A stretch of 64,000 bases of DNA, from assembly GCA_029339195.1 (NCBI GenBank), contig JAPTJF010000041.1, positions 1 to 64,000 on the forward strand. The letters are read 5' to 3'. Under the pieces are notes generated by a model. That model was not told the origin of the DNA, ran no database searches, and saw only the letters and a program-made list of their open reading frames with translations. A program made the translations under genes and the position numbers. Source of the stretch: Micractinium sp. NFX-FRZ (lineage: Eukaryota; Chlorophyta; Trebouxiophyceae; Chlorellales; Chlorellaceae). This document shows, one piece after another, positions 31,465 to 58,575 of the stretch (position 1 is the first letter of the stretch; each line of letters begins with the position of its first letter).

Positions 31465-34400
31465 TCAAACTGCCGCCAGCGGTGCCACAGCTGCCTCAAC
31501 CCCCGCCTCGTCGCCGCTGCTGCTGCCGCCGCCCTCGCTTGACGCTACTGCCGCCGTGGCCGCCGCTGCCATGGCCTTGCGCTGCTGCTTCTTGGTCGGC
31601 TGCTGCGCCTGCTGCTCCCCGCTGGCAGCGGCTGCCCCCCGCCGCCGCGTCTCCAGATGCACCAGCAGGTTGGAGATGTCCGATGGGTTCACACCCCCGA
31701 TGCGGCTTGCCTGCCCAATGTCGCGCGGCCGGATCCTGCGGGGAAGAGGGCGGGCCACAGGCGGTGCCAGGGCAGGAGGACGGGCGGGCAGACAGGAGGA
31801 CGGGAAGTGAGCCGGGCTGCAGCTTTGAGGAGGGGTTCGCCAGGCTGGCGGGGAGGCGCACAAGCAGGGCAGATGGGTCCTGGCTGCTGCTGACCAAAGC
31901 AACCCACCCAACCCCCGGAGCCCATGAAGCCGCCACTCACTTGGCCAGCTTCTCCCTGGCTTCCATGCTCAGCGTGTGGATGGAGCGGTAGTCAATGTCG
32001 TCGGGGATACGGCGCGCGTGCTTGGCCGCCACCGAGGCCAGCTGCTTGGCCTGAAAATGAGGAGGGGGAAAGTAGCGCAACTAAGCTTTGCTCTGATTAA
32101 ATGTACATGTAACGGCAACAGAAGCCAGCTGCTTGTGCTGCGGGGGTGCAGAAAGAGAGAGTGGGAGACAAAGTAGTGTGCCAAGCTTTGCTCTGATGGT
32201 ACCAGCAACCCAGCACCAACACAGCAGCAGCAGCAGCAGATCAGCAGCATCAATCAGAAGCAATCCGGAAGCTTAAAGTGATGCCAACGGCACCGCTGTT
32301 GTGACCCACAGCACAACACAGCACAGCACAGCACAGCACAGCACAGCACAGCGTGGCACGTCGCAGCACAGCGGGCCCACCTGGCGCCGGATGAAGCCCT
32401 CATACTTGATGTCGATCTCCACTGCCTCCTTCTCAGCCGAACTCAGAACCCCCACTTCTGCTGCTGTGCCGCCGGCTGCGCCTGTTGTTGCCTCCAATGC
32501 TGCCGGGCTGCCTGCTGCCGCGTCAAATGCTGCTGCACTGCTGCTTGGCACCTCGCCTGCGTCGCCGCCAGCACCACTGCTGCTGCCCCCGCTGCTGCCC
32601 CCGCTGCTGCTGCTGCTGGGGCCTGCCCCCTCTGCTGCTGCCGCCCCCATGCCGTGCACCTCCAGCAGAGGGTAGTGCACGTGCGGCCGCCTCAGCAGGT
32701 CGGCCAGAGTGGCCAGGCCAGGCACCCCCTGCCCGCTCACAGCCTCGGTCGCCTGCGCCAGCGGGTGCTCAGGCGTGACGCGCACCCGCTCCAGCCGCTG
32801 CCGCTCGCCGTCAATCCGCGCCTGCTTCTCCTGCACACGGATGGGGGAACGGGCGGCGGGCGGGGCGGGCAGCCGGAGCGGAGTGTATGCGTGAGGAGTG
32901 TATGCGTGAGGAGTGTATGCGTGAGGAGTGTATGCGTGAGGAGTGGGGAGCAGGGGTGCAGCCGATGAAACTGCAGCTCGCTGGCGGCACATGCCAATAG
33001 GAACCTTAACCCTATTCTCAAGCAGACGGGCGGGCGGGAGGGTTGGGAAGGTATCGGCAGTGGGGAGTTGAGGCGCGCCAGGGGTATGCGGTGCAGGGGG
33101 CGGGCTTGCACGGCTGCACAACCAGAGCTTGATGGCATGACAGAGCCTCCCGTGCCACCCACAGCCGGCGCGCTGAGACCACCCACCCCCACTGGTCACC
33201 TTCTTGCCCACCAACACTTCGTGGACTTATGATACACACCCAGCCGTAGGCACACGCCACGGCCTGACAACACACAGGCGGCGCCCACTTGGTACAGCTG
33301 CCAGCGCCGGTCGTCCACCATGGTGCCGCCCACCCAACCTGCTGGTCTCCCTCTTGCCCACGAACGTCTCCAAGTGTTGATCGATCAAGCCCAGCCCAGC
33401 CGTAGGCACACACCACGGCCTGACCACACACAGGCGGCCCTCACCTGGTACAGCTGCCAGCGGCGGTCACCACCAATGGTGCCACCCCACCCACACCCCC
33501 TGCTGGTCTCCCTCTCGCCCACCAACCATCTCCAAGTTTTGGTCAACAAAGCCCAGCCCAGCCGGCACACACCACGGCCTGACCACACACAGGCGGCCCT
33601 CACCTGGTACAGCTGCCAGCGGCGGTCGTCCACCAAACCCAGCTGGCGTCCCAGCGGTGTCAGCCGGCGGTCGGCGTTGTCGGAACGCAGCACCAGGCGG
33701 TACTCAGACCTGCAAAGGGGGGTGGGGGGTGGGGGGCACACACACGGGTGGGAACAATTGTTACGTACAGTGCAGCGGCTGATTATTTTCATGAAACTCA
33801 TTTCTACTGTAAAAAATAAGCCCGAAAAAAGAAATCCGCATTTCCCACAACTCACGCCTTTGCACGGTACCACTCTTCCATCTCCCGCCCCACCCAGGTC
33901 TGCCCACCTGGAGGTGAGCATGCGGTAAGGCTCCCGCAGGTCTTTGGTCACCAAATCGTCCAGCAGGGTGCCAATGTAGGAGGACTCGCGTGGCAGGACC
34001 ACCGGCTGCTGCCCCGCCGCACGCCGCGCAGCGTTCATGCCCGCCACCAGGCCCTGCGCTGCCGCCTCCTCGTAGCCTGCACAGACGGGGGCGGGGGCAG
34101 GAAGAGAGGGGTGGATCACACAGGAGGGGGGTGCGAAGGGTGCCAGAAACACTTGTTGCGGCCCGCCAAAGCAGAACACAAAGCTCTCAACATGTAGCAG
34201 CTTGTGTGCAAGACGCAAGGGCGTTGTTCCTGTACATTACCGCCCAGATGAGCCAAGGCCCGCTCAACGCCAAAGGCTGTCAACCAAGTAGCAACTCAAT
34301 TCCAGGGGAGCAAGCGCGCTGGTCCCTGTACAGTATCATCCCCAGCCCACCCGTGGTTCCGTTGAGCTGCCCCGAGAAGAAGAGGCCCGCCACGCGCTTG

Positions 34401-37400
34401 GTCTCCAGGGTGGCGTGGCACTGGTGGGCGGGCAGGTAGTCGTACTCCACTGCGCATGAAGCAAGGCAGGACGGGGGGTGAGGGGGTGAGAAGGGCGGGG
34501 GGTGGAGGGGCAGGCAGGGGCGGGGGCGCTTCACGGGCGGCGTGGCCCTGCGTGCCCAGCTGCAGAGAGCGGCGGGTGTGTGAGGGGCCCCGGCGGAGGC
34601 CCAACCACCTTTGCCCCACTGAACACCCCACCTGCATATGCGGGGCGCAGCATCTTGTAGCCCTCCCGGCCCCCTTCATCCACAAACCAACTCGAGCGTA
34701 AGTGAAATCAGCACGCCCACCTGCGTATGCTGGGCGCAGCATCTTGCAGCCCTCCAGCCCGGGCAGGCTGTGCAGCAGCGCCAGCTGCAGCCGCTCGGGC
34801 AGGCCCGTGGAGAAGCCCTGCACATACATCTCTGGGGTGGTGCGCCCCTCTGGCTCCAGGAAGATCTGCGGGGCAGCGTGGGATGAGGAGGGGTTGCTGA
34901 CTTTGGGTGGTGTGGTGCCGGGGAAGCCCTGCAGCCAGGTTTTGCGTTGACGGCGTTCTGAAACGCGGATCAGCAGCAGTCGGCAGCCCCTGGCGTGAAC
35001 CGATGCGCCTCTTCGTTTCCATGTAAGGTGCACGTTGGGCGAGACGTCTTTGAAGACAAGCTCCTGGGTGGCGCACCCATGCCAGCAGATTTCCCCGGTT
35101 GTTGTCCCCACCCAGTTGCTCTCCTGGTCTGCAAACTGTGCGCACAGTCTCGCACACCTGCGCAAGCTGCTTCCCGCTTGCCCTTCCGAAATCGGCTCAC
35201 CCCAGCCCACCTGGTGGCTCTCCTTGTCCCCAAACCGCACAATCTTGTCCTCAGGGGGGGGGTAAAGACAGAAAGAGGGAGACAGCAGGCCTGGTCGCCA
35301 ACAGACACACAGCCCACCCCACTGCCGTGGCTCCTCCTCTTCTTCTTCCTCTTCCACATACGATGTGGAACAACTGTGCCCACCTGGTGGCTCTCCTGTC
35401 AGCGAACCGCACACTCACGTCCACACGGGCAAAATGAGACGGGAAGACAGGCGCCGCAGGCTCGCTCGCGGGCAGAGGCACGGCCCACCCCCCATCCCCA
35501 ACCCACTGCCGTGCTCCCTCAACCACACACCCCTCGTAACCTTTCTTCCATAAGCGAAGCTGCCCACCTGGTGGCTCTCCTTGTCGGCAAACCGCACAAT
35601 CTTGTCCTCGATGGAGGGGCAGTAGCGGGGGCCCTTGGCGTCCACCCACCCCCCGTACACCGGCGTCTCGTGCAGGTTCTCCTGGTGGTGAGGAGGAAAG
35701 GGGGGCGGGGGGGAGGGTGAGCGGCGTGTGTGTGTATGTCACATGAGAACAAGGCCCATGTGCCGAACAAGGCGTTTCGAGCAGCCCTACCCTGCCTGCC
35801 CCATGCACCCGCCCCCGGGTCTGCCCATGCTCTGCCCGCAGGGCGTGGTGGATGTCTCCCGTGTCAGTTAGCAGCATCCCAACCTGCCTGCCCTCTCCTG
35901 CCTACGCCATTCTCCCCGTGCCTGCCCACACGTATGCCTCCTACAAGCCTCACCCTCAGTGTGCGCTTCTGCCGCGGTGCGTCGGGTAGCTGCTGCCCCC
36001 CCTGCCTGCCTGCCCCTTCCTCATCCCCTCCCCCTCACACCCCAAACGACCTCAGCATGCACACCATCACTCACCCTCAGTATGCGGTGCGTCTCAGCGG
36101 TGGTGTGCGTCAGGTAGCAGCTGAGCTGGTCGCGGGGCTGGTGGACGGCGGGGTCGAAAGAGAACCAGCGCACCTCGGCGTCGCCAGGCTGCTCCTCCAG
36201 GCCTGGTGGGGCAGGGAGCGGGGGAGGGTGGGAGGGCGGGAGGAAAGGGGTGTGAGCGGGCTTGAAAGTGAGGGCAGAAAGGGAGGGGGTTTGCATGGCA
36301 TGAGAGCAAGCGCACCGCTGCGTCCCCTGGATTCCCGCCAGGGAAGCTGGGAGGGAGGGCAGGGGATGCAAGGAAGGATAAGGGGGGTGGGGGGGACTCA
36401 CAACCTCCTCAGTGCGCCTCCGGGCCCTGGCCTGTGCACATACACCGCTTGCACGCCTCCTGATTCAGGCGTGCGAATCCAGCCCGCCGCCCGCCTGCCC
36501 CAACCTCCTAAACAACCCACCCACACCCGCACCCGCAAAGTTGACCGTCCTGCGGTCCACGCGGGCCGGCGTCCCCGTTTTTAAGCGGTCCGTCTCAAAC
36601 CCCAGCTGAACCAGGCGCTCGGTGAGCCCTGTTGAGGGCGCCTCGCCTGCCCGCCCCGCCGCCATGGACATGCGCCCCACCCAGATCTGTGGTATTACGG
36701 GGGAGGGGAGGGGGCACACAGGGCAGCAGGTCGGGGGGGGTGCGGGCGCAGGTGGGGGGCGGGGTGAGGTGAGGGGCGGATCCAGGCTGGCAAAGCAAAC
36801 CAGCCTGTGCTCCTCTCTCCTCCCGCCCACATGTCCTCCCCCCTGCCTTGTCGATCCGAAAGAAAACCAGAGGCAGCTGTGCAGGCCGAGAAGGCAGCCC
36901 ACCTGGCCGTTCATGAATGTGCCCGTGGCAAGCGCCGCCCCTCTGCTGCCCCGTCTTCCCACTCACCCACTCCCTCGCCCCCCCTCTGTGTACAACACAC
37001 ATAAGAACACACAGCACGACACAGAAGGCAGCCCACCTGGCCGTTCATGAATGTGCCCGTGGTGAGCACCGCGGCCTTGCAGCGGAAGGTGATGCCAAAG
37101 TAGGTCGTCACGCCCGTCACCTCCTCGTTGGGCCCCACCTCCACGCTCGTCACCATGCCTGCGGGCATACAGCATGGGACGGGGGATGGGGTGAGGTGGC
37201 ACCGACGGGACTGGTGCCGAGAGGATGGCGGATGTGAGGCCGCCTCTCTCGCCATGCTGGATGCTTAAGATTTGGGTGCTCCGGCACGCTCGCCCCCCAT
37301 GGCAACAGCCCCCCAGGCCAATACCACCGCCCTCGAGGTACTGACGTCGCTGCCCCTCGCACCAGTGCGACCCCAAGCCATTACCAATGCCGATTCAGAC

Positions 37401-38264
37401 GCTGCTGCCCCCTGCGCCCGCCAGTGCACCCCGCTACACTCACCCTCGCGAATGCTCAGGTTGGGCGTGGTCTCCAGCACGCGCCGCATCACCGCCGCAT
37501 ACTCAAGCTTGTCCGTCTGCGCGCGCAGCGCCCACACCGCGGGGCCCTTTGAGCTGTTCAGCACCCGCTTCTGGAGGTAGCTGCGGCGGCGCAAGGGGGG
37601 AGGGGGGGAGGGGCAGCAGCTTGAGGAGGGGTGAGAAGAGTACGGCACGTGTGGAAGCGGATGGCAACCAACCCAAGTGCAGGGCAGGGTGTAAGATGGA
37701 GAGGGAGGGGGGAGTGTGTGCCAGCAGCGCTGACCACGTCTGCCCCCTGCCTGCTGCTCCCCACCCCCCTTCCCAACATCGCCTCAGGTGCCCCCATCCT
37801 GTTTCCTGCCTACCTTCAAACGCTCAACAGCTGCAACCCGGGCCCCTCCGCTGCCACCTCTCAGCCTGCAGCCCACCCCCAGCCCTTGCCAGATTCCTGG
37901 CGGCTGCGCTGGACCGCTCCACGCCGCTCTACGCCCTGGTGCCTCAGCTACCCCCCTCTAGCTTGCAGCCCGCCACCCGCCTCACGTCTGGTCCGCCACC
38001 TTGCCAATCTCCCCGCCCAGCGCGTCGCACTCGTGCACCAGCTGGCTCTTTGCCGGACCCCCCACAGCCGGGTTGCAGGGCTGCCACGCGATGCGGTCCA
38101 AATTGAGCGTCAGCAGCAGGGTGCGAGCACCCAGGCGGGCAGAGGCCAGCGCCGCCTCGCACCCCGCATGCCCCCCGCCCACCACCACAACGTCGTACTC
38201 CTCCTCGTGATCCTCCCACCCCCTGCCGCTGCTGCTGGCTGGGCTGGCGGCGGCGGCGGCTGGG

Positions 38265-38304
<40 letters not shown>

Positions 38305-39133: not shown

Positions 39134-42100
39134 ATGCAGGCGCAGCTGCAGGCGCAGGCAGGGCCACATGCCAGGCTGCCGTCGGCAGTGGCGGCACGGC
39201 AGCGGCAGCACGGGCGGCAGCCTGCCACAGGCCTGCTGCCCCTGATCCGGCGCTACCAGCGCAGCGGCCTTGGCAGCGGCAGCAGCAGCTTCACCAGCAG
39301 CAGCAGAACGAGCACAGCCAGCCTGTTTGGCAGCAGCAGCGGCAGCGGCGGCAGCGCTCACGCCCGCGGGCGGCACAGCCTGCGCGTTGCGGCAGAGGCC
39401 GGACCCCAGGAGCGGCGGGCCACCATCCAGCAGCGGCGGCTGGACACGCTGTCAAACATTGACAACCTGTTTGACGAGGAATTCAAGCAGCTGGACACGG
39501 TACGGTTGGGGGGGAGGGGGCATGCTGTGGGAGCTTGCCTGCGCAGCTGAGAGGGGCAGCCTCATGAGAATGATGCAGCTGGCCGGACTTGCTGTCCACG
39601 CCCTTGCATGCCTGTGGTTGCCTGTTTCCCCATCGTGCCTGCCGCTCCTTCCCCTCCTCCACAGAAGGATTTGTGAAGGGGCAGGGTGCCTTCAAATAGT
39701 AGTAACAATAGTGCTAAAAAATCAAAACCTGCTTTGTGGCCTTCCATACAGGCAAGATGTGAGCAACAATCACTCCCCCCTCCTCCCCGTGCAGAACCTT
39801 GTCAAGGAGCTGGTGGCTGACGACTTCAAGGAGCAGGACCGCAAAAAGCTGAGGGTGGTGAGGGGGCGGCGGGGCCTGCTGGGTGCACACTGTGGCGGCA
39901 GTACCACCGCAGGAGGCTGAGGGCGGCGGGGCCTGCTGGGTGCACACTGTGGCGGCAGTACCACCGCAGGAGGCTGAGGGCGGCGGGGCCCGCTTGGAGT
40001 TGAGACATGTGTATGTGTTTGAGTGTGCACAATTTGTAGGGGCAAGGCAGGAAGGGCGGTGAGGGGGCGGCGGGCGTGCTTGATGAGTGTGGGCATGTGT
40101 GGCACATTGTGGGGCAGGACCAGTGTCGGAAGCCGAGGATGGTGAGGCGCTGAGTGCATGGGGATCACAGGTGTGAGCGTGGGTGGGTGTGTCCTCCCCA
40201 GGGGGCAGGTCGCATGCTGCAAGCAGCTGCTCCTCACCCCGCCCGCGCCCAAACCTGCCCCCTCCCCTCCCCTCCTCCCAATCTGATCCGCCAGGTGTTT
40301 GACTTTGACCGCTGGCAGCGCCACCGCTCCTCCTCCCGCTACTTTCGGCACATGACCGGCCTCCTCACCTCCCGCTCGGTACGCAAGCAGGGCAGTTGGG
40401 GTGCGGAAGTGGTGGGGGTGCCATCGTGGCAGTACACGGGAAGCAGTGCAGGAACTGTTGGGTGCCGCACGTTGGCTGCAGTCTGTGTCGGTTGGTTCAT
40501 TTCCGCTCGTAAGCAAGCAGGCCAGGTGGGTGGGCGGTGAGTTGTGGTGCATTGTGGCGGCAGCACAGGGGGAGCAGTGCAGCCAATGAGGGGTGCTGTG
40601 TGATGGGGGGCAACCCCCGTGACTTGGCTCTGTGCTTTGCTGTGAGTGGAGTGGCGGAGGGTGCGGAGGCAGTGGCGTGTGGGACGCCCACATGGCAAGT
40701 GGGGGCCAGGCTGAGCTCACGCCCCGCAGCTCAAGGGGTGTACGGGTTCCGCTCTGTATGTACGGGTTCCGCTCTATGTGTATGGGTTCCGCTCTATGTG
40801 TATGGATGTGCTGCGCCCCCGTCTGACTCACCTCCCTCTCGGGTGCCGCCTTGTGGCTCACCTCCCGCCCCCTGCAGCTCAAGTGGATGGGCGCCCCCCT
40901 GGCCTACACCGTCTCCGTGGCCACCGCTGTGGGGCTGTACTACACGCTGGCAGAGGTGGGCATCCCTGCGCGTGTTCTCCGCTTGACTCTCTTTTCGGTT
41001 TGAGGGTGGGGTGGGGTGGGGTGGGGTGGGGCTCTCCCTCGCTTCCCCTCGCGCCGCCTGCAGAGCGGGTCCCTGAGGTGTCGCGCATCAATTGACCTTG
41101 CAAGTTGGGCAGCGGCACCGCACTCAGCACCACGGTTTGCCCAGCTTCCCCCTGGCTCCGCTTCCCCCTGCAGGCCGGCTTCCTGCCCGAGGTGCCCGAG
41201 ATCAAGACCAACGCCGTGTTCAGCCTCACCTCCTTTGCCCTCGCCAACCTCCTGGTCCTCACGTGAGCCTGGCCCTGGCTGGGGACCCCTGCTGTGCTGC
41301 TTCAACAGTGACTCTGGGCCATCTACCAGGCAGAGCCGTTCCAGGCTTCCCAGTGCAGGCCAATGTCCCGGTTCTCTTTTTAACCTGGCTTGGGAGCCCT
41401 GCTGTGGTTGCCTCGAGTTCTGCCTGTGCTTGTTTTTTTTCGTTTTGTTTTTCACACTTTTTTACATTGCCTCGAGTTCTGCCTGTGCTTCTGTTTGGGA
41501 GCGCCTGTGTTGGGTGTGTGCTCTGGGGCGGCGCCCCCGGCGCCGCCCGCCACCTCCTGGCCACGCTGCCAGGCCCTCCCCCCTCCCCTCCCTGACCCTC
41601 CTCCCCACCTCTTCCCCTGTCTTCCCCTGCAGCACAAACACGGCGTACCAGCGCTTTGATGAGGCCCGCAAGATGTGGGGGCTCGTCGTGAACCGGTCGC
41701 GAGACGTGACGCGCCAGGTGGGGCGGTGTTGGGGGGAGGGGGAGGACGGCCTGCTGCGGAAATGCAGGGCAGGGCAAGTGGACAGGCAACAGGGGGTAGG
41801 AGGACGGCGTGCTGTGGAAATGCAGCAGGGCAAGTGGACAGGCAAGTGCAACATGGGGTGGGGTGTCTGGCCGCCACCCCATGGCGCAGGGCAGACGACG
41901 GCGCACTCGCTTCACGCACGGAGGGCACCATGCCCACTCCTCAAGCATGCCTGTTCGCATGCGCAGGCGCTGGGCTGCATCCCCCGCTTCCATCCCAGCC
42001 AGCACAGCACAGCACCCCGCTCCCTGCGACACACTCGCTCTGACTGGCCCTCATCTGCTCACCCATGTCCCCCTGCCAAACACTCAATGTGTGCCCCCGT

Positions 42101-44765
42101 GCCTACTCGTCTCCCTCGTCCATGCGCAGGCGCTGGGCTACATCCCCGACAGCCAGCCAGAGCTGCAGGAGATGCTGTGCCGCTGGGTGGTGGCCTACAG
42201 GTGGGTACTGCCACTCAGTACTGCCTAGTGATACTGAGAGTAGTTGAGCTGTGTTGCGCAGCTGCTGGGTGGGGGCCTGCAGGGCAGGTCAAGGGTTTGC
42301 TGTTCGTACTTTCCATGCGTTGTTCTGCCGATACAAGTGGTGGCTTGCAGGTGAGCGTTGCTGTCTGCTAGCTCCACACGCTTTGTGTGGCAGCATGGCT
42401 GCATAAAATGCAGAAGGGGTTGGGGCGCTGGTGCTGGATGTTGGCCTGCAGGTGGGGGCCCTCCCTTCTGTGAGTGTTTGTCCTGTCTAGTCACCCGTCC
42501 CCATCCTGTTTGCTGACCGGCCAAGCTTGGCGCTTTGCTCTTCCCCCTGCCCCCCCTGCAGCCGCTCCCTGCAGTGTCACCTGCGCGCTGGGGAGAACGT
42601 GGAGCACATATATTTTGAACTGAAGACACCAATCATCTGCTTCCCCCCTTCCCCACCCCTGCAGCCGCTCCCTGCAGTGCCACCTGCGTGCTGGGGAGAA
42701 CCTGGAGCGTGAGCTGCTGGGCAAGCTGCCCCCACACGAGCTGCAGGCCCTGCTGGCGGCCACCCACCGACCAAACTACACGGTGCAGGTGCGCTGCTCT
42801 GGGTTTTATATATCTCGTGCTGTTTCCTGTGTTGGGGTGCATGGCAGGGCTTCAGGGCTGGGGCTGGGCTGCCTGCACCCTTTGACCCGCCGTCTTCCCA
42901 CCTCCCCCAGCACACCACAACCCAATACCATTTACCGTGCCTGCTGTGCCTGCTGTGCCTGCTGTGCCCCCTCATCACCCAAGGTGATTGCCGAGATCCT
43001 GCGGCGCGCCAACCTGCCGGGGGCGGAGGTGCTGCCCACCGACTCCACCGCCAACGTCAAGGCCTCCGCCTTTGTGCGCATGGATGAGCACCTCACCGTG
43101 TTTGCGGTGAGTGTGGGGGTTGGTGGGTTGGGTCCACATGCAAGGGACCGTGGGAGCCATGCAAATGCGTTGCCAAAGCGGCTGACAAGCTGGCGGGTAC
43201 ATTGGGTGACGGGGCACTGCCTCCGCCTGTGTGCACATGTGCAAGCACCTGCCCGTGTGTGCGGCGAGTTGGTCTGTGCACGGCAGCAAGGCAGGCGGAG
43301 GGCAGACTGTAGCAGGGCGACATGGCCCTGCTGCACCTGGCAGCGTGCAGGGGTGACCGCTCTGCGCTGACCCCAACCCTCCCTGTGCTGCATTTCAATC
43401 TCACTGTGCTGCATCCCCTCTCTGCACTGCATCCCAACCGCTCTGCATCGCAACCTCTCTGCACCCCACACCACCCCTGCCCTGCCCTGCCCCTGCCCCT
43501 GCCCGCAGGATGTCACCGGCGGCTGCGAGCGCATCCTGCGCACGCCCGTGCCCCTGGCGTGAGTCTGTCAGCAGGTCACGTGCTGTGTCAGAGGGAACGC
43601 GCCTGCTTTGCCAGTGCAAGCCTCCATCCCTCCACCCCGTCCCGCCCACCCTCACCCCCCTCCCTCCCCCTCCCTGTCCCGCAGCTACTCCCGCCACACC
43701 TCCCGCATGCTCACCATCTGGCTCACCTTCATTCCCTGTGAGGGCAGCCTGCCTGCCTGGGTGGATGTGTGTGTGTGTGTGTGTGATGGGTGTGTGGAAC
43801 TGTGTGTGACTGGCAGGCAGGCCTGTGCTTGCCCCCACCATCTGACCCACCTGCGTGCCATGTGAGAATCAGCGTGCTTGGGTGGAGCTGTGATGGCCGG
43901 ATCTGTGGGTGACAAAACATGTGGGCCCGTGCTTGCTCCCTGTGTCTGCTCACCATGCAGCCTACCTGGGCTGGGACACCTGCCCCTGGGCCAATCGCGC
44001 CCCCTCCGTCCCCCCTCCTCCTGCCCGCATGCTCATCTGTCTCCTCCGTGCCTGCCCCCTCCCCCTCCCCCTCAGTCTCCCTGTGGGACAACTGCGGCTG
44101 GGCCACCGTGCCCATCACCGGCATCGTCGCTTTCCTGCTGCTGGGTGAGTGAGTTGGTTGGGGTGATTCAAGTCGAGTTGAAGTGGCAGCTGAGTGAGTT
44201 GGTTTGGGTGATTTAAGTTGACTTGAAGTGGCGGCTGAGTGTGAGCATGTGTTGTATGCCCCGAGTGCCCCCTACGTTTACAGCGCCCCTTCCTGCAGGC
44301 CTGGCAGCACGCCGGGCTCAGTGTGGGGCAGCCCGCCCCTCCCCTTCCCCTTCCCCCCCGGCTTGGCTGACTCAACCAGCAGCGCTTCTATGCTCGCCGG
44401 TGCAGGCAACCAGGTGTTTGGTATCATCCCTGCGTAGCTCTTTATGCCACCAATCAGTGTATGATTCATACCTCTGCAAGACGAAGTGTGTTCTCCCCTG
44501 TTTCCCGGGTGCAGGCATCAAAGAGATTGGGCTGACTGTGGAGGAGCCCTTCTCCATCCTGCCCCTGGAGCGCATCTGCGACACGATCGAGGGCAACGTG
44601 TGGGAGCTGCACAGCGCGCACAGCGCGGAGGGCGCCAACGCGGGGCGGCGCAAGCGCGCGCAGGCGGGCGGGGTGGCAGTGGAGAGCATGGATGCCGAGG
44701 ACCTGGTGGGGATGGCGGTGGAGGGCCTGCCCACGCTGGAGCCGGCGCTGGCGGGGAGGCGGTAG
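39134..44765 (+). CDS. Bestrophin-family anion channel, plastid-type, 501 aa
   Basis: Thirteen phase-consistent exons: 39134-39499, 39795-39857, 40295-40378, 40878-40955, 41174-41262, 41633-41717, 42130-42200, 42665-42788, 42984-43106, 43509-43558, 43685-43737, 44076-44144, 44516(44515)-44765 (stop TAG). Bestrophins are pentameric anion channels; in chlorophytes and plants, thylakoid members carry chloride (VCCN) or bicarbonate (BST1-3 of Chlamydomonas, carbon-concentrating mechanism). Family signatures: VFDFDRWQRHRSSSRYFRHM, membrane segment LAYTVSVATAVGLYYTLA, FSLTSFALANLLVLTTNTAY, then QRFDEARKMWGLVVNRSRDV, HLRAGENLERELLG, the cytosolic RMDEHLTVFADVTGGCERIL, RTPVPLAYSRHTSRMLTIWL and FLLLGIKEIGLTVEEPFSIL. 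The Arg/Ser/Gly-rich N-terminal ~90 residues look like a transit peptide. The C-terminus is acidic/Ala-rich. Chloride versus bicarbonate cannot be decided. Exon 2 could end at 39854 instead of 39857. Confidence 0.92.
39845..39985. repeat. 57-bp tandem repeat starting at bestrophin exon 2 donor
   Basis: GCTGAGGGCGGCGGGGCCTG and the following TGCTGGGTGCACACTGTGGC are repeated with about 57-bp spacing, beginning with the exon end CTGAGGGTG and its donor; later fragments occur near 40050 and 40130. Confidence 0.88.
40738..40810. repeat. ~22-bp tandem repeat, three copies
   Basis: TGTACGGGTTCCGCTCTGTA and variants repeated three times in the intron before bestrophin exon 4. Confidence 0.88.
41745..41852. 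repeat. ~60-bp intronic duplication
   Basis: GGAAATGCAGGGCAGGGCAA and GGAAATGCAGCAGGGCAAGT, each followed by GTGGACAGGCAA, lie in the intron after bestrophin exon 6. Confidence 0.8.
42562..42716. repeat. Duplicated start of bestrophin exon 8 with acceptor
   Basis: GCAGCCGCTCCCTGCAGTGT followed by CACCTGCGCGCTGGGGAGAA at about 42558-42600 duplicates the true acceptor and exon start at 42661-42705, about 102 bp downstream. The upstream copy keeps a usable AG and stays open for many codons. Confidence 0.92.
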
Positions 44766-44896
44766 TAGGGCACATGTCCCGCCCGGCAGGGCACCGGTAC
44801 TGCCTAGTAGGGCATTTGGCCGCCCGGCGTGCACCCTAGCAGATCCCCTGCACTAGTGCCTGCTGCCCTCCGGTGGGGGTGGCGGTGGATGGTGCA

Positions 44897-49400: not shown

Positions 49401-52255
49401 GAAGAAGAAGACAGCTCGAAGGCGTGGGGTTGAGGAAGCCAACATACAGCCAGCCAGCCATGCCTGGCGCTCACCCCGGAGCTCAGCGTTGCTCCTCGGT
49501 CGAACCGCATGCGCACTGCGGCACCGTACACCCAGGCAAAGATGTCCAGGGAGGAGATCTTGGTGCCGGGCGCCAGGGTGCTGAAGCGGTTGAGCGCGAG
49601 CGCAATCGAGGGGTGCAGTTTGGCGGCGAGCCTCAGATCCAGCAGCCCTTCGGCGTGCACCCACATGCCGTTGGCAGGGCCGGCCGGGCCGACGGTGACC
49701 ACCGGCTTGGCGATGCTCCTGCCGGCGTGAGCAGCAAGTGACACCAATGAGCATTGCCTGATGGCGTGGATCAATACTGCAGTGCGGCCGCCGCGGCAGC
49801 CTGCCGGCCGTGTGGGCCAGCTGAGCGCTCCGCGCATTCGCACACGCGCACGGGCATGCAAGCCGGAGCTTCTTTGCAGGAGCACAGGCGCGAAGCAGTG
49901 GCCACGTGCCGCTGGCTCACCTGAGGTCCAGCTTCATCTTGCCCCACAGGTCGATCAGCGGCCCCTGCTGAAGGTCCAGCACAATCTTGGCATTGTTGTT
50001 CCACAGGAGCGTGACGGAAGGCTGGCGGCCCAGTGTCGCGAACAGCACGTCTGTGCCAGGATTGCCGTCAAACTTGGCTCCCAGCAGCGTGCCGGTGAGG
50101 AAGGCTTGGCCGAAGTTGGGGTTGGGCTCTGTGGTGCCTGCGGGCAAGCCGGGGAAGCATGCTAGAGGCTGCTGTGGGGCTGTGAGGATGTGCTGCCGCC
50201 AGGACTGGAGCTCAAGCAGCCAGGCACACAGATGAGAGGAGCGCAGGCAGCCAGGCAGGCAGATAACACACTGGAGGGAACTCCATCCGGAGGGAGGCAG
50301 CTGGGTGCTGGGCGAGCAAGGGGGCGTGCGTGTGGACTGCCAGGCAGACCTCCTGGCGGGCAGGCGGACGGGCAGCCGGGCAGGCAGGGAGTGCAGCAGA
50401 GTGGCCCGCGGACGGGCCGGCGCTGTGCGAGTGGGCGGGCGGGGAATGCAGCTGGGTACCTTCCGACAGCGGGTCTGTGGTGTCGGTGCTCCACAGCGGC
50501 GGCAACGTGGTCTTGGCCCACTGCTCAGGTACGGCCCTCCAGTTGGAGGAGTAGGCAAAGCCTGTGAGGTTGACGTCCAGGCTGTCAAAAATGTCGTTCT
50601 GCAGGGGAGGGTTGGTGGGGCAGGGGCAAGCTGGCAAGGAAGCACTCCTAGCCCTTGTTCCATGTTTTCAAGGGGACATAGCCAGCCAGCTGGTCCGCTG
50701 TTGAAGCTGCGCCTGGGTGTTCATCACAATGTCCAGCTGGCCTGCAGACGGCCTGCCTTGAAAGCACATCTGGCGTGCATCAAGTGACCACCGCAAACCT
50801 GCTCAACCCCTGCCTGCAGGGTGCCTACCCTGAAGCTCAACCCCTGCCTGCAGGGCGCCTACTCTGACGCTCAACCCCTGTCTGCCTGCAGGGCGCCTAC
50901 CTTGATGCTCACGGCGGACTGCAGGCCCGTCACCCCCAGCGCCAGCGCCATGTCGGTGCTGTCGCCACAGGGCTGCACTCCCAGGCACACCGACAGGCCC
51001 GGGCCGTGCCGCTGCATGGCAGTCACGAACTTGCGGATGCCTGGGAATCCGGCCAGCTGGCCCGAGGTGAGGGATTTCAGCCTGGGGCAGGGGGGGCCAT
51101 CCGTGCATTGCACCGACAGAATGTGAGCAGTCGCAGGGCGGGCCAGCCGGCACATCGTATTCCACAGGAGGGTGGGTTAGCCCTAACGTTAGATGAGAGC
51201 TCCTCCAAAGTAAGTTATGCACCAGCGCATGCATGCTGATGCCAGACCGCGCCCTACCCCTCAAAGCCACGGGGCACCCGGCCTTACGGCGGCAAGGCGC
51301 CGGCGAGGTAGGAGCTGGTGTTGTTGAAAGGGGCACGGGGACAGGCAGCAAACACCGGGTTTGAGCGCAGCGAGTCCAGCTGCAGGCAGGTGGCGGGGGT
51401 GGGGTGATGACGTAGGCGTGACGCCAGGGGCCGCGGAGCAATGTGGCTGCAGAAGCTGCAGGCACTGGACACGACACGCCCCGAAGGGCCGCGCAACCAT
51501 TTCTAGGCGCCTGGGCTCACCTTGGCTCCTGAGAACAGCGGGATTGGGCACTGGGATAGCGCCTGGCTCCCTTTGGCCGCCTTCAGCCTGCGCAGCCGGC
51601 GAGGAGCTGCCCCCAGCCTGAGCAGGCGAGCGAGAGTGGCTGACCACGGGGCTGGCGGGCTGGCAGCCTGCTTCGTCGCGCCATCCTGCATGCCTGCCCG
51701 CCAGCCCCATCATGCACAGCTGCCCAGATGCAAACAGCCCCCCATTCCTGCCCACCACCCCAACGCTTGTTGTGCACAGCGCCCCAGGCTGCTCACCATG
51801 CAATGGTGTCTCCCAGGGGCAGCAGGTCGAGCAGGTTGACGGTCGTCTTGGCCCCGCTCTTCATGGGCAGCAGCAAACCTTGATCAAGCACAAACTTCAT
51901 CCACTTGGACTTCGCCTCCAGCTCACTGGGCGTCAATCCTGCACTGCCGTCTTCTGGCAAGCACTCGGTGCCGGTGCCGAAGTAGGGGCAGGCGCCTGCA
52001 GCGGGCCACCCACGCAACCAGGGCTTGAGCGGCGTTAGGGCACGTGCGGGGCGAAGCTGCAACAACGACATCTTGCGGAGCGGCAGTGGTTCCAGGACTT
52101 AAAAACTTGACATACAGGTCAATGCAGCAGTCGGGTGATCGGAAGAAGGGCTCCAACTACATTCAACCTCAGGGTGCACCTGCCGCGGCGACCGACGCCG
52201 GCGCCAAGACGACGGCAGCGGCGGCGGCCAGCCAGAGAAGTGCGGCGCTGCGCAT
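46408..52255 (-). CDS. Secreted protein: novel N-terminal region, Cys-rich linker, PHB-depolymerase-like esterase
   Basis: Exons: 52255-52180, 51995-51797, 51587-51521, 51379-51288, 51081-50901, 50598-50460, 50137-49921, 49718-49475, 49190-49134, 48790-48720, 48484-about 48350, 48300-48259, 48190-48112, 47823-47648, 47419-47275, 47092-46911, 46660-46618, 46457-46408 (TAG). All junctions keep phase except the one after 48484, whose donor is unresolved. Signal peptide ALLWLAAAAAVVLAPASVAA. About 420 unrecognised residues follow (e.g. VLFATLGRQPSVTLLWNNNA; FGQAFLTGTLLGAKFDG). Then Cys-rich CTKSSQCPGGMVCG and CGSGQRCNVPP. The last ~210 residues are an alpha/beta hydrolase of the PHB-depolymerase/feruloyl-esterase type: oxyanion region LALHGSGGN, nucleophile elbow GFSAGAS, acid KDDKL, and catalytic His in YTGGHKLSKQELDDVINW. 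Probably an extracellular or vacuolar esterase; substrate unknown. It could be two genes, but the phase-correct Cys-rich bridge argues for one. Confidence 0.75.
50803..50901. repeat. Three tandem copies of an exon end with donor (esterase gene)
   Basis: CTCAACCCCTGCCTGCAGGG plus TGCCTAC/CGCCTAC is repeated at about 30-40 bp spacing up to the real donor at 50900. Each copy carries a GTAGG-type donor look-alike on the gene's strand. Confidence 0.88.
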
Positions 52256-53766
52256 GCAGCTGCGCCCCACACCGAAACGATATGTGTGCATCTCGAAGTC
52301 ACGGGGGCGGGGGGAGATCGAGTGGCGAGCAGAAGGCTGGTCCCGTCAAGACCTGCTGTCACGCTCAGCACAGGCTGTCGGGATGCGGTGAGTTACGGAG
52401 ACGCAAAATGAAGCAAATTGAAGAAATCTCGCAACGGGTGAGAGGGATGCCGCGAGAACTCTGAGTTTGTCTTGCCACCGCCGTTGTGCGGCGACGTCGC
52501 AACGCACGACGTCTCTCTTTGCAAACCCCAGCTATGCTTAAAACGAGTAGATCTCAGTGCATAAGGGTCGAAACAAGTGTCCAATATCGCAGAGGAATAC
52601 GGGAGGAACACAGGAAGAGCAGGGGCGCCGAGCAGGAGCAGCGCTGCGACCCGGCCCAGGCGGGCCGCCCAGCAGGGCAGGGAGGAGCAGACCGGCCGCA
52701 GCCCCGGCCATTAACACAGCTTATCTTTCTGAGATGGCCGCCTGGCGCGGCCCCGGTCATGTGACGGTGCAGCCTGTGCTGGCGGGGCAGCGGTGGGCGC
52801 ACCTCGTTCCCGCTCCCCGCCACCCCACCCCGCCCCGCCTTGCTCCACATTGCGCCCATTTTCACGTGTGGCTACACGCATGCGCGGCCCACCCCAGTTG
52901 CGTGTGGCGCACGTGCCTGCCCACCTCCCCGGAGTCCCTGCTCACCCGCCCTGTAGATGCGTATTTCAAACAGAGCATACTTTAAAACAGAGCGCGGTTG
53001 TAAGGACTGCCTCACAGCACGAGTGTAACGAGACGAGCCAGCATGACATGGCCGGCCTGGCTTGAGCAAGACAACTAGGCCCAGCGCCCTGCAGCAGGCA
53101 CGAGTTGTACTAGTCATCAATCAAAGATGCTGTGTTGGCCAGAACCAGTAGGGAGCGGTGAGTGGGTTGCACAGCATGGGTCCAGGGCGAGCGGGGCCGC
53201 CGCAGCAGTGGTGCTCCAGACCTGGCGCGCTTCAAAGGGCGCTGTGCACACCTGTGCTCCTTGCACACATATGCACTTTGCGCAGCTGATTCCAAGTCTC
53301 CCTCACCGGGCCGTAACCCCCTGTCCTCGCCCCACCTGGCTTGTGCCGGGCAGGAGTTGCCAGCACACGCAGGCCGCCATACGGCAGTGCTGGCACGCCA
53401 TGCTGCGCTGCCGCTGTCTAGACTGCCAGGAACAGACTGGCAGCCGGTCCTGCCTGCTCGTGGCGTAACGGAGGCAGGATACGTGGGAGGAGAGCAAAGG
53501 GGTGGCATGTGCCCAAGACCACCTGGGGAACGGGAGGGGCAGAGAGCGGCGGCGGGCGGGCGGCCGGGAGTGGGTCAGGGGGGGAACACCTTGCGGGGGC
53601 TGTGCCGCGCTCAAGGCGTCCGCTGCGGCACAATCGACTCTGCGCGCCAGTCACACCCAAGAACAGCCCTCGCTGTCCTGACCCTTCGTGCATGGGGACC
53701 TCGCAGCAGGCAAGCCATCCGCTCTCTATTTCCGGGCTGCCGCCCTGCACGCCCTCCATACGTGAC
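52256..53766. promoter_or_regulatory. Divergent intergenic spacer, esterase / second kinase
   Basis: Separates the leftward esterase start from the rightward kinase start and should carry both promoters. It contains dispersed repeat copy B. No specific promoter element recognised. Confidence 0.4.
52768..53300. repeat. Dispersed repeat copy B
   Basis: Collinear and co-oriented with copy A (44897-45605): GCCTGTGCTGGCGGGGCAGC, CCTGTAGATGCGTATTTCAA, GACATGGCCGGCCTGGCTTG, AGGCCCAGCGCCCTGCAGCA, GGCCAGAACCAGTAGG. About 530 bp, shorter than copy A through deletions. Confidence 0.82.
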
Positions 53767-56700
53767 ATGCGAGGCTCTGCGGTTCTTGTGCTGCTGGCGC
53801 TGCCGCTTTTGGCGGCGGCCAGCGGCCAGCAGCCCGCGGCCGAACAAGGTGAGCCCGATTGGCCCTTCCGGCGGCCCCCTCTGGCCTTGGCATGCCCACA
53901 CAAAGGCCATGGCAGCGGCAGCCGGGCCCCGGGCGACACTCCTTCCTAGCCAGCTTCCGCCCACCGCCGGTGCCTGTGCAAGCGGGCGGTACTGGGGTGC
54001 GGGCGCCTCCCGCCCGCCTTTATTCGGCGAAACGACCCTTGCCTCCCTGCCCTGGCCCCCAACGCTGCAGCCGAGCTACTTTTGTCGCTGCCCAGAGCCT
54101 GCTCAGCCAACTGGGAGCAAGCGACGGCAGAGAAGCCGGGCGCACCGTGGGTGGCGGGCACGCCGCCCTGCGGCGCCCAGGGGGCACAGCCATGGAAGGG
54201 GGTGACGTGCAACGAGCAGGGCGCGGTGACAAAGCTGTGAGTGGGCGCTGGCTTGCGTGCTGGTTGCAGTGTGCGCAGCGGAGGCCCAGCCGGGCGCACT
54301 TGCGCGCCGTTGCCGGTACGCCGCCACCCGCCCGCCGTTTGAAACCCTCTTTGCCGGGCGCCCCGCCCCGTGCACCCTCCACCCCCCTGCAGCGCCGTGG
54401 GCGGCGTCAAGATCCAGTGCACCGGCCTGCCGCCCGAACTCGCCCAGCTGTCCACCCTGGAAATGCTGGACCTGAAGTGCAACGCCCTGGTGGGCAGCGT
54501 GCCGCCCAGCTGGCGCGCCGTGGGCGCCTTCCCCGCGCTGCAAAACCTCAACTTGGCAGACAACCTGCTGACCGGCGCGCTGTCCGACTTCACGCTGCCG
54601 GGGTCGCAAATGATGGCTGCCCAGGTGTTCAACGTGTCGCGCAACCGGTTTGAGGGGCCCATCCCGCCCGCCTGGCACTCACCCAGCCTCCAGGTGCGAC
54701 TGCGGGGCACGAGGCAGTGGGGCACTTGTTTGCTGCACCCATATGGCATTGGGTGTGTTGGGATCTTGGCTGCAGGATGGAGACGCAATTGTGCCCATGC
54801 GTGCGGCAGCTCATGCGCCCGGAAGAGGAAGCAGCGGGAAGCGGCGGCAGATCAGGCTTCACAGTCTCAGTCGTCGCCCTACCGCCCTACTGCCCGCTCA
54901 CCTCCATCCCTACCTCCCCCTGAATGCGTGCCCCTCAACAGGTGCTGGACATCTCGCTCAACCAGGTGCACTCGGTGCTGCCCCCGGCCTGGGCGGAGCC
55001 TGTGGATGGCCAGCGCTCCGCCTTCCCCGCCCTGAGCCTGCTGGCGGTGCAGGGCAACAACTTGACGGGTGAGGGAGGGGGACGTGTGGGTGTCTCTGTG
55101 AAGGCAGGGCAGCAAAGGCAGGGCAGCAAGCCAGTGGCCACCGGTGGGGCGGGCATGGGGGACGCGGTGCGGGATGCAGGCGGCACGGCGGGGGCGGGGG
55201 GTGTGGGGAGGGGCAAGCCACCCGCGGGCTGGAGCTATCTGCCACGTAAAGCAAAAGCCCCTCCTCACCCTGCAATCCACGTGCGGCTGTCATCCCAATT
55301 GTGTGTGTGCCTCGTGCTCCTGCGAGACCTAACCCATCCAACACTTGCCCTGTTGACATCACCTGACCTCCACAGGTCCCTACGACCCTTGGCCCGCCGG
55401 CGGCGCCGCCGCGTTTGCCCCCGACTTTGCCATCATCGCCCGCCCAGGCAACGGCTTCCTGGAAGGCGTGCCGCCGTTTGCCTCCGCCAGCCAGCCGGCA
55501 GACGGCGGCGGCGGCGGGCTGTCGGCCGGCGCGATTGCAGGCATCGCCGTCGGCGCGGCGGCAGGCGCAGGTGTGTGTGGGGCGTGCGAGGTGTCAGGCG
55601 GCAGCTTTTGAGCGCGTGGCCGTGCATGCTCTGGGTGCAGGCAGGCATGTTTACTATGCTACCCAGGCTGCGCTCTGTCGCTGTGTGCTCACCCCTGTGT
55701 ACTCACCCCTGCCTCCCCCGCCTCCCCCCAAATCCCTCTCCCGCAGCCCTGCTTGCGCTGGCCGTGCTGCTGGTGGTGCGCCGCCGCCGGCGCTGCTCCG
55801 TGGGCGCCGGCGCGGCCACGCCTGCCTCTGAGGGCCCATCCTTCAAGGGGGGCTGGGGCAAGGACCTGGAGTGTGGGGGGCTGTCCCGCGGCAGCCCCAC
55901 CTCGCCACGGGAGAGCGCGTGGGATTCCTTGGCCGGCAGCGCCAAGGCGCCCAGCTCGCCGCTGGCTGCCGCTGGGGCAGGCGGGGGCGCTGGGAGCCTG
56001 CGGGATAGCGCCATGGGCTCCAGCGCTGGCAGCAGCGAGGGAGGGGACAGCGGCATTGTGGGAACAGTCCGGAGCAGTACGGGCGGTGGCGACGGCGATG
56101 GCAGCAGCCAGGGCCGGCGGGCGAGCAGCGCCGGGGTGGACACCGACACGCGCCGCCTGCCCTCTGATTGGAGCACCATCAAAATCGAGGAGCTGGAGCT
56201 GAGCCACGTGCTGGGGCAGGGGTCATTTGGGTCGGTGCACCTCGCCAAGTACTGCCACACCACAGGTGAGAGGGAGAGCGGTGGGCGGGAGCTGCAGGCG
56301 TGTGTGTTTGTGCGTTGTTAAGTGCACGTGGTTGTTGGAGGCCAAGGACTGCCACACCACGGGTGAGAGCGGCGGGCGCAGCGCATGTGCCTGCTCTTCC
56401 CAGTGTGAATGACAGGCGGGCCTGGTGACCAGTGGCCGACCTTGTTCTCCTTCCTCAACCTCGTCTCTCCGCTGCAGTGGCGGTCACGATGCTGCCCATT
56501 GTGCCTTTGGCTGACCCTTGCTCTAATTCCCTAACTGGCCCACACTGCTTGCAGTGGCGGTCAAGATGCTCACAGGCGTGGAGCGGCCGCCGCCCGCAGC
56601 CGCCGCCTCCACCCCCGCCCACCACCACTCCTCCCTGGTCTCCCAGCTGGAGCGGGAGGCGGGCCTCATGCGGGAGCTGCGCCACACCAACGTGTGCATG

Positions 56701-58575
56701 TACATGGGCGCGGTGCTGGAGCCGCCCTGCCTCGTCATGGAGTACTGCAGCAGGCGCAGCGTGGACAAGCTGCTGGCCGCGGGGCTGCGCGATGCAAAGG
56801 TGGGCCGCTGCTTCACGGCCATGCTGGGCGGTGGTGTGGTGTGGGGGCGGTGGTTGGCAAGTTATGCAGGGCCTTTGGTTGAGCGGCTCGTCTTTTTTCA
56901 CTGCCCTCGTGCCCTTCCCCCACGTGGCGCACATAGCCTGCCAGCTCAGCATGGCACTGGTAGCCGCTCGAGGCGTGCTCTCCCCCGGCACACACCCCTG
57001 CTCTGCGCCTCACCCACGCCTGCTGCCCTGCTGCCCGTGTGCCCGCCCGCCTCCCCCCACCCCCCCCACCCCCAGGTTGCCCGCCAGCTCACCTGGCCCC
57101 GCCTGCTCAGCATGGCGCTGGACGCGGCCCGGGGCATGCTCTACCTGCACACCCGCTCCCCTGCCGTGTACCACCGGGACCTCAAGTCGGCCAACCTGCT
57201 GGTCACCTCCTCCTGGCAGGTCAAGGTGAGGGGGTGGGCGTACTGCCTCGGGGTGCGGGGCGTGCTGCCTTGGGTGAGGGGCCGTACTGGGGCCTGGGGC
57301 GAGGGGGCGCGCACAGCCTCGGGCCTGTGCCTGCTCCTCGGCCCCCGCCTGCCCGCCGCTTGGGTGCCTGCGCTGTTTGGGCTGTATGCCGTTGCGACCT
57401 GGATTTTGCAAGAGGCTCGGGTGGCGGCCGGGGCAGGCTGCGCCTGTGCCAAGCCCTGGACAGCAGCGGTCTGATGCCGTGTGTGTGCCCCCCAGTCAGC
57501 ACGCTCACACGCGCCTGTTATATGTGCCCCTGTCCCGCTGCCCCGCAGGTGGCCGATTTCAACCTCTCAAAGGCCCTGGAGACCAGCGGGGTGATGTCAT
57601 CGGTGTGCATCCAGAACCCACGCTGGTTGTCGCCCGAGCGCCTGGCGGGCGGCTGCGGCGGCCTGTCCAGCGACGTGTGGGCCTTTGGCACATGCCTGTG
57701 GGAGCTGCTCAGCTGGGAGGCGCCGCACGGGGAGGCAAATGCGTACCAGGTGCGTGTGTGTTTATGTGTGTGTGTGGCAGTGTGTGTGTGTGCATGCGTG
57801 TGTGGCAGAGTGTGCTTGCTTGGTGCGCTTGTCGTGTGTGTGGTGCAGAATGGGCGGGCGGGGTGTGGTAGGGCGGGGCAGGCGCCGGCGCAGGTGTGAG
57901 GGGGATGTGTGGGCGGGGGGGAGTGGGGGCGCCTGCTGCCGCCGCCCTGCGGCTGTACTCCCACAGCGCAGTGCCCAGGGGCCTGCCGCCCACCTCGCGC
58001 CCCTCCCAGCGCCGTCGCCCCACTCCCCACCACCCTCACCCCCCCGCTGCCAACCCCTCTCCTTCCTCCCCCGCCCCCGCAGATCATCCACTCAGTGCAG
58101 GGCGCTGCTGCCGGCTCCGGCCTGGCGCCGCCCCCCCGTGACCAGCTGCCAGCGGGGCCGCTGGCTCAGTACGACGAGCTGTGCGCCCTCATGCAGGCAA
58201 GCAGTGCTGTGCCGTGCGCAACCCACCGCAGCTGGCTCGGTGTTTTTTGCTGCATGCATCCATTCATGCATTCATTCATTGAGCAGGGCCATCTGTATCG
58301 GTCCCCTTTGCGTGGCACTCGTTGTTACCTGCCCTGCTGACCTGCATGCGCCGCCCTCTGTCTTAGCATCGATCGTTATGTTAAGACTCCACGCGTGCTC
58401 CTCCCCTCTGCAGGCGTGCTGGAGCCGCGACCCCGCCCAGCGGCCGGGCATGGAGGAGGTGGTGTCCCGCCTGCGGGCCATCCTGTCTGCCGGTCAGTGC
58501 CTCTTTCTTGGTGTACCACACTACACTTCGCCTTACTGTAGTGGGGTTTAGGTTCATGAGTAGTAGAGCTCGTCC

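Follow-up and report, generated by a model that had tools for sequence, protein, structure and literature searches.

One of the closest described counterparts of the pattern reported here comes from the potato RdRp gene, where Ma, Lan and Niu (2016; PMC4974935) described a genomic segment duplicated in tandem across an intron-exon boundary; they also report a tandem duplication of 83 bp within the first intron. As their account of the duplication presents it, this is a single case in which a new intron and inserted exonic sequence were created. Tandem duplication near sequence resembling a splice site is also the basis of Rogers-type intron gain, in which an AGGT-bearing exon segment is duplicated, so that the source is exonic and the ends of the new intron resemble the flanking exons (as reviewed in PMC3443670). 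Other intron-creation work, as cited in PMC3443670 and PMC4974935, involves short intragenic duplications, including duplications of intron-bearing segments. Introners, as they are characterized in PMC9860276, form dispersed families and affect many introns through a genome-wide process.

In the alga Micractinium sp. NFX-FRZ, we analyzed a window of 64,000 nucleotides at the start of one contig (C41), within a sample of 314 kb of the 66-Mb genome (0.5%) taken from that contig and two others (C1 and C10). Two marks of a boundary duplication are present: in 65 of 512 introns a direct copy carries exon sequence together with the splice site and part of the intron, and the locus is longer by one whole unit (median length of 369 nt, which becomes 243 nt after subtraction of d, the distance between copy and source, against 244 nt in other introns). 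Unlike the potato case as described in PMC4974935, many junctions are affected on both sides of introns, the old junction is kept and no new intron is seen. The short intragenic duplications recall the intron-creation work cited in PMC3443670 and PMC4974935, but in the alga the duplicated junctions become intron interior. The resemblance to introners (PMC9860276) lies in a process of genome-wide type that hits many introns, here sampled at 314 kb, whereas each algal copy derives from its own junction. No sequence of at least 150 bp recurs in at least three genes of the 314 kb at E 1e-15, and swapping junctions between introns yields less than one match per side. In the literature that we searched, chiefly outside subscription journals, we found no report of junction copies as a pervasive feature of a genome.

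The preliminary description of this DNA had proposed that such duplications might capture introns in the course of birth through duplication of AGGT-bearing segments. This part of the proposal did not hold for recent events. Rogers-type gain predicts intron ends that resemble the neighboring exon ends, and an anchored comparison found this in 0 of 486 introns at 70% identity on either side, and local alignment at score 30 identified 1 and 0 of 486. Recent births by this route are thus unsupported, although old births that have drifted would escape detection. The data show how introns grow, not how they are born.

For the MnmG gene on the minus strand, a model made by hand, without the copies, agrees in protein alignment with the proteins of six algal relatives. 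At score 28 or above we recovered the donor-side copies that had been reported for exons 4, 6, 7, 8 and 11, including an exact match of the 38-nt identity noted at 36891 and 37025. The exon 4 donor junction is copied at 36889-36938 (source 37023-37072; 36 nt of exon and 14 nt of intron; 47/50 identical; d 134), that of exon 6 in diverged form at 35949-35995 (source 36070-36123; 40/54; d 128), and that of exon 8 at 34627-34666 (source 34716-34755; 37/40; d 89). The exon 7 donor junction has three copies, at 35377-35422 (source 35561-35607; 41/47; d 185), at 35205-35261 (source 35562-35619; 53/58; d 358) and, diverged, at 35107-35150 (34/44; d 452). Two copies of the exon 11 donor junction lie at 33425-33476 (source 33584-33636; 51/53; d 160), within a 156-bp tandem array, and at 33270-33320 (47/51; d 315). 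The acceptor junction of exon 6 is weakly copied in the preceding intron, which follows exon 5, at 36302-36357 (source 36160-36218; 43/59; d 139); this copy has a score of 31, near the threshold. Two MnmG stretches match only themselves genome-wide, and the genome yielded no further copy of this region that could serve for dating.

At score 32 or above, copies were likewise found in the predicted genes for bestrophin, the second kinase, the esterase and the lipase; of the genes named earlier, only the first kinase (about 23797-31106) gave no passing match with the present gene model. Bestrophin (plus strand) carries copies in four introns, comprising acceptor-junction copies at 41958-41984 (source 42121-42147; 26/27; d 163) and, with pyrimidine tract and AG, at 42544-42605 (source 42645-42708; 58/64; d 101), and donor-junction copies at 42433-42456 (source 42182-42205; 21/24; d 251), at 43219-43269 (source 43062-43112; 41/51; d 157), where GT has become GC, and at 43836-43866 (source 43712-43742; 25/31; d 124). 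The second kinase (plus strand) has copies in three introns, one of which holds both a donor-junction copy at 56341-56369 (source 56244-56272; 27/29; d 97) and an acceptor-junction copy at 56473-56493 (source 56550-56570; 20/21; d 77). Its other two copies repeat exon sequence just inside the border, at 56937-56984 (source 57098-57145; 38/48; d 161) and at 57453-57488 (source 57573-57608; 28/36; d 120), beginning 22 and 24 nt into the exon, respectively. On the minus strand, the gene first named an esterase has a donor-junction copy at 50810-50854 (source 50882-50925; 37/45; d 71), and the class 3 lipase gene has acceptor-junction copies in two introns of the window, at 63245-63277 (source 63151-63183; 32/33; d 94) and 63682-63724 (source 63574-63616; 34/43; d 108), with more beyond the window. 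One further minus-strand gene (16566-19697), outside the range described earlier, has a donor-junction copy at 17231-17270 (source 17336-17373; 33/40; d 103).

To assess frequency, we scanned the 512 usable introns of 582 predicted in the sample, with low complexity masked beforehand, and compared the matches with swapped, reverse-complement and reversed junctions. Direct copies of an intron's own exon border, exon sequence included, occur in 75 of 512 introns, about one in seven, and any match in 87, of which 12 hold intron sequence only; the swapped junctions gave 0.5 matches per pass with both sides summed. In an earlier set of 428 introns, where counts of whole junction windows include some intron-only matches, 47 donor and 41 acceptor junctions were matched at score 30 or above, against 0.35 and 0.58 expected from swapped junctions. 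At score 30, neither reversed junctions (0 of 428) nor, on either side, reverse-complement junctions (0 of 428 each) gave a match; at score 26 the reverse-complement junctions gave 4 and 3. Junction copies are thus far above chance, and they are not peculiar to the window, with exon-bearing copies in 30/172 introns of C1, 9/84 of C10 and 36/256 of C41, a rate that holds outside the window's contig. The earlier word "pervasive" is borne out for the sampled 314 kb, but as a claim about the whole genome it goes beyond the sample. The copies come from the junction of their own intron, neighboring introns serving as source in only 1-3 of 386 per test. A comparison that could have dissolved the pattern, by showing junction copies to be no commoner than copies of other segments, instead found copies of the exon end for 21/155 and 21/160 exons, as against 1/155 and 1/160 for the exon interior; whole junction windows were copied in 24/155 and 22/160, counts that include some intron-only matches, of which the exon-end counts are free.

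That gene prediction, low complexity or assembly produced this signal is very improbable. The gene models are ab initio, from a finder whose training used this very DNA with MnmG as the starting point, and two false mini-exons, 39 and 9 nt long, were predicted by it from copies in MnmG, the longer being the stretch 35211-35249 within the second exon 7 copy. Against an artefact stand the agreement of the MnmG exons with six relatives and the expected Pfam domain in three of the four other affected window genes examined, the esterase-like gene having no Pfam match. In addition, exon-bearing copies persist in 62 of 400 introns whose flanking exons are both at least 60 nt long, the masked scan leaves all three controls near zero, and the divergence of the copies from their exons, about 3-28%, is not that of collapsed reads or haplotypes. 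Genuine mini-exons as an explanation of the copies are rejected, since no enrichment of acceptor or donor was found at the far edge.

The typical copy holds about 35 nt of exon and lies about 110 nt from its source, and the two sides are equal, with 36 donor and 35 acceptor spanning matches in the 512 introns. Pair statistics were taken from rows with score of at least 34, at least 14 nt of exon, intron side of at least -12 and d of at least 60, which retained 73 of 85 rows, from 65 introns, and left out some exon-only matches; a few of the 73 pair a copy with a copy misread as a mini-exon (MnmG 35250, and perhaps a 30-nt exon near 156 kb of C41). Median intron length is 369 nt in the 65 introns with a copy and 244 nt in the 447 without. 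The difference vanishes when d is subtracted (p 0.20) but not when only 45 nt are subtracted (p 1e-7), an increment that is read from medians over introns and not from single events. The gain per event is therefore one whole unit, about 110 bp, which is what a tandem duplication across a coding/non-coding border would give. The claim of local duplication across junctions on both sides that lengthens introns is supported by these counts and by the increment. Two weak associations were also seen: GC content is slightly reduced in copy-bearing introns (p 0.014 and 0.05), and the exons that precede donor copies are longer (p 0.02).

The increment bears on a different reading, in which short pieces of the junction are inserted into the intron with unrelated filler and no tandem unit exists. 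Its attraction is that matches end a few nucleotides into the intron (median 7 nt past the splice site) and that 44 of 70 pairs lack significant homology in the intron half. Yet 26 of 70 pairs do show homology of the intron half at an unchanged offset (p<=0.05), where 3.5 are expected, introns lengthen by d, and about 75 nt of filler would be required per event. Template switching commonly gives inverted copies, and these are absent (0/428 per side at score 30). We regard templated insertion as rather unlikely.

We consider it probable, at roughly 0.6, that the copies are explained by local tandem duplication across coding/non-coding borders, tolerated inside introns. Short duplications, typically of about 110 bp, would arise locally, the unit consisting of an exon end and the intron start or the reverse, such that the outer junction stays intact and a second junction comes to lie inside the enlarged intron. 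The copy is presumably removed with the intron; the protein would then be unchanged, so that the duplication is tolerated and the event can reach fixation. The exon original is under purifying selection, so its intronic copy would stay recognizable, whereas the unit's intron half would drift beyond recognition.

When we simulated neutral, uniform tandem duplication, however, it failed on three points. Exon parts longer than 60 nt were predicted in 39-48% of detected events but observed in 5/79 without and 2/73 with the intron-side filter, so the exon part is too short. With the exon part capped, the intron part is too diverged, with matches reaching at least 24 nt into the intron in 4/73 against 41-55% predicted, and a recognizable intron half in 24/63 against 68-86%. 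Finally, junction events exceed intron-only events by 75:32, about a two-fold excess over the predicted ratio of 1.14-1.35 (binomial p 0.006). Also unfavorable to the explanation are that pairs of high exon identity are no richer in intron homology than the others, that start-codon borders lack copies, and that only two of the four matches at stop-codon borders are clear. Because of these misfits we add two putative steps to tandem duplication. Exon definition would ignore copies whose exon part is shorter than about 58 nt and that lie more than about 70 nt away, longer or closer copies being purged by such a splicing filter, and occasional gene conversion from the exon may refresh the exon part of a copy.

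In a stronger form, which is tentative and in our view improbable, exons would act as master copies whose short conversion tracts (35-50 nt) repeatedly rewrite the intronic copies amid free drift of the intron. This would jointly explain the junction excess, the sharp end of the matches and the fact that intron homology does not rise with exon identity, being present in 9/25 high-identity pairs and 17/45 others. In a three-copy array in the C1 intron at 52622, the two intronic copies agree over 17/18 nt of an intron stretch, yet 8/32 positions distinguish their exon parts. The nearer copy has only 3/32 mismatches to the exon, as conversion would leave it; against this, the farther copy shares 18 nt exactly with the intron adjoining the true junction. 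The nearest copy is the more similar one in 11/14 cases by identity and in 14/14 by score, MnmG exon 7 being an exception. Paralogues at 90-98 kb of C41 have mostly unalignable introns and give no measure of the intron rate, because their silent sites are, by estimate, probably near saturation.

The excess at junctions could also reflect a mutation specific to them and coupled to splicing or transcription, for instance through polymerase pausing or RNA-templated repair, which would place copies of 30-60 nt about 110 nt away. We find this doubtful. The contrast between exon ends and interiors, the two-fold excess over the neutral model and the many young-looking copies without detectable homology in the intron half all favor it, as does the lack of copies at start-codon borders (0/46). 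Stop-codon borders, by contrast, gave 4/52 matches, two of them clear on reading and with flanks that are also homologous, and these two imply that splicing is not required for duplication. Copies are moreover never inverted at score 30, and introns lengthen by d instead of by the copied piece. Copying from spliced mRNA was rejected as a source, with 3/428 nominal cases (one a CAG coincidence, one weak and one credible), so that credible spliced-junction copies number at most 1-2 of 428. The credible case lies in the C41 intron 112927-113367, in a gene with internal repeats.

Whether the copies are used bears on a last explanation, that they are decoy or regulated splice sites under selection. 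As the preliminary description anticipated, the copies leave a second GT or AG behind, with GT kept in 24/28 and AG in 23/29 cases that align there (10/67 do not). The 47/57 kept overall slightly exceed the 72% expected at 15% divergence, the exon part and distance are narrowly distributed, and exon parts seem better preserved than intron parts. The excess of kept sites is not significant (p 0.10), however, and copies drift without codon constraint, mismatches being nearly alike at the three codon positions (0.127/0.154/0.174). In the sampled introns the copies are unrelated to splice-site score and to their place along the gene, their far edge shows no enrichment of acceptors or donors, and d modulo 3 has no firm bias (donor 6/11/17, acceptor 13/15/11). 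A function of this kind is quite improbable.

Local duplication across junctions offers a countable and visible route of intron lengthening, with about 110 nt gained per event in the sample. Each copy can be dated against a nearly unchanging exon, and how duplicated splice sites arise, decay and are tolerated can be measured within one genome. For gene finders the copies call for caution, as those in MnmG were predicted as false mini-exons. If exons do rewrite their copies, intronic copies would outlast what neutral drift allows. The abrupt upper bound on how much exon is copied may reveal the shortest exon that the splicing machinery of this alga accepts.

Extra direct copies of an intron's own exon-intron border exist within introns of Micractinium sp. 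NFX-FRZ. The 314 kb sampled represent 0.5% of one genome (66 Mb in 838 contigs) and comprise 164 kb of contig C41 (JAPTJF010000041.1), including the window (C41:1-64000, 65% GC), with 100 kb and 50 kb of two other contigs, C1 and C10, the latter numbered within its sampled stretch. A custom gene finder predicted 582 introns across this sample; its starting set was the hand-built MnmG exons, so that their exact recovery (9/9) is not an independent test. In the first 264 kb, each junction (40 exon and 25 intron nt) was compared with the remainder of its own intron; at a score of at least 30, donor matches occurred in 47 of 428 introns versus 0.35 for swapped junctions, and acceptor matches in 41 versus 0.58, while reverse-complement and reversed junctions gave none (0/428). 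Over all 314 kb, 87 of 512 usable introns had a match, 12 with intron sequence only and 75 with exon sequence (C41, 36/256; C1, 30/172; C10, 9/84), and junction-spanning copies were present in 65 of the 512. Twenty passes of swapped junctions gave a mean of 0.5 matches, never a junction-spanning one. Of 400 introns whose flanking exons both measured 60 nt or more, 62 held exon-bearing copies.

Most of the genes named in the preliminary description, i.e. MnmG, bestrophin, the second kinase, the esterase-like gene and the lipase, do carry copies, but the predicted model of the first kinase has none at the threshold used. A long AGCAC / 102-bp tandem array (24058-24602) lies inside a predicted intron of this kinase, and a tRNA-Gly (anticodon tcc) occupies 7670-7741 on the plus strand. 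The 38 nt cited at 36891 and 37025 are exactly identical. In MnmG, modelled by hand on the minus strand, donor-side copies follow exons 4, 6, 7 (three), 8 and 11 (two). Its spliced exons encode a single uninterrupted protein with 93% identity to Micractinium tetrahymenae and 92% to Chlorella sorokiniana, and alignment with six algal MnmG proteins, two of which are without part of the N terminus, shows no insertions at copy-bearing junctions; a short insertion in C. variabilis is away from them. The gene models are imperfect, and in MnmG they turn two copies into mini-exons, one of 39 nt and one of 9 nt. The former (35211-35249, intron after exon 7) is a copy with AG before and GT after, predicted as in-frame, and is absent from the six related proteins. 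Pfam matches confirm bestrophin, the second kinase, the class 3 lipase and a cobW gene, and found no match for the esterase-like protein.

The copies are anchored at the junction, and the proposal that junctions are copied more often than random segments held up in matched subsets. Whole donor junctions were copied in 24/155 cases and the exon's last 65 nt in 21/155, versus 1/155 for exon interior (40-105 nt inwards); on the acceptor side the counts were 22/160 for junctions, 21/160 for exon heads and 1/160 for exon interior. Intron-interior windows were copied in 4-16 of 155. The copied exon part has a median of 35 nt (5-95% range 18-56), the distance d between copy and source junction a median of 110 (76-184), and the spacer a median of 75. 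Two copies occur at 14 of 73 junctions, the nearer being more similar in 11 of the 14.

The suggested lengthening of introns is borne out: where a filtered copy is present (65 introns), the median length of 369 falls to 243 after subtraction of d, compared with 244 for the remaining 447 introns (p 0.20); subtracting 45 nt instead leaves 324 (p 1e-7). The gain in length therefore equals d and not the copied piece, which fits duplication of a whole unit rather than insertion of the copied piece alone. In 26 of 70 pairs (24/63 by a second method), homology at the same offset can be recognised in the unit's intron half, where alignment gives short matched blocks interrupted by indels.

Splicing is not required for duplication. 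Stop-codon borders matched in 4 of 52 windows at a score of at least 30 (0.25 expected), and start-codon borders in 0 of 46, the predicted starts being judged less reliable than the stops. At a score of at least 28 there are five matches. Those at C41 near 76535 (d 206) and C10 near 44210 (d 83) clearly duplicate sequence across a stop codon; the remaining three comprise a probable missed donor, a 37-bp repeat and a weak match. The local repeats that contain the two clear cases align over 272 and 156 bp, and these tandem duplications cover the predicted stop codon and 3' flank (C41 76151-76603 and C10 44178-44400, beyond the window).

Other repeats were seen beyond the window. An intron at C41 112927-113367 appears to contain a diverged version of its two flanking exon ends, fused as they would be after splicing (57/75 match; the gene has internal repeats). 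Self-complementary palindromes of about 165-198 bp with 85-92% identity lie at C41 84583-84747, C10 16617-16814 and C10 17592-17774. Tandem paralogues at C41 90796-98690 have alignable exons and mostly unalignable introns, and a stretch of about 60 nt ahead of one acceptor seems conserved to an exon-like degree. A 1.28 kb inverted pair (C10 4416-5667 and 29235-30497, 92% identity) is possibly a mobile element.

The copies drift. In 67 pairs, mismatch by codon position was 0.127, 0.154 and 0.174, and single-difference codons were synonymous in 90 cases and not in 147 (38% versus 30% under random change). The copied GT is retained in 24/28 aligned cases and AG in 23/29 (10 unaligned), and the joint 47/57 is not a significant excess over the 72% expected at 15% divergence (p 0.10). 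Splice score and position within the gene are alike for junctions with and without copies; GC is slightly lower in copy-bearing introns (p 0.014 and 0.05), exons preceding donor copies are slightly longer (p 0.02), and the copy rate varies among genes (p 0.004).

Simple neutrality, as simulated by uniformly placed tandem duplications with the exon frozen, does not explain several features. Among detected simulated events, 39-48% have an exon part longer than 60 nt, versus 5/79 observed (2/73 filtered). With the exon part capped, 41-55% of simulated matches reach at least 24 nt into the intron (observed 4/73), and 68-86% have a recognisable intron half (observed 24/63). Junction and intron-only events with d of at least 60 number 75 to 32, against a predicted ratio of 1.14-1.35 (p 0.006); we read some intron-only events as copies of copies. 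Intron homology is no commoner at high exon identity (9/25 versus 17/45).

Recent intron birth by AGGT duplication, a proposed route of intron gain raised in the preliminary description, is not supported (0 of 486 introns). Tandem genomic duplication is an accepted intron-gain route (PMC3443670), and the nearest report concerns one potato gene, where tandem duplication across an intron-exon boundary produced a new intron (PMC4974935). The partly accessible literature yielded no account of duplicated junctions as a widespread source of intron lengthening.

We favour, and commit to, the reading that local tandem duplication arises across coding/non-coding borders. With the outer junction left in place, the copy would be spliced out as part of the intron, which would account for the tolerance of such duplication. 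Gene conversion may refresh the exon part of a copy with the exon as template, and would then account for the younger look of exon parts relative to intron parts. Exon definition is a candidate reason for the tolerance on both sides, the minimum distance and the limit on exon length: splicing would ignore an exon end whose copied length is insufficient for an exon.
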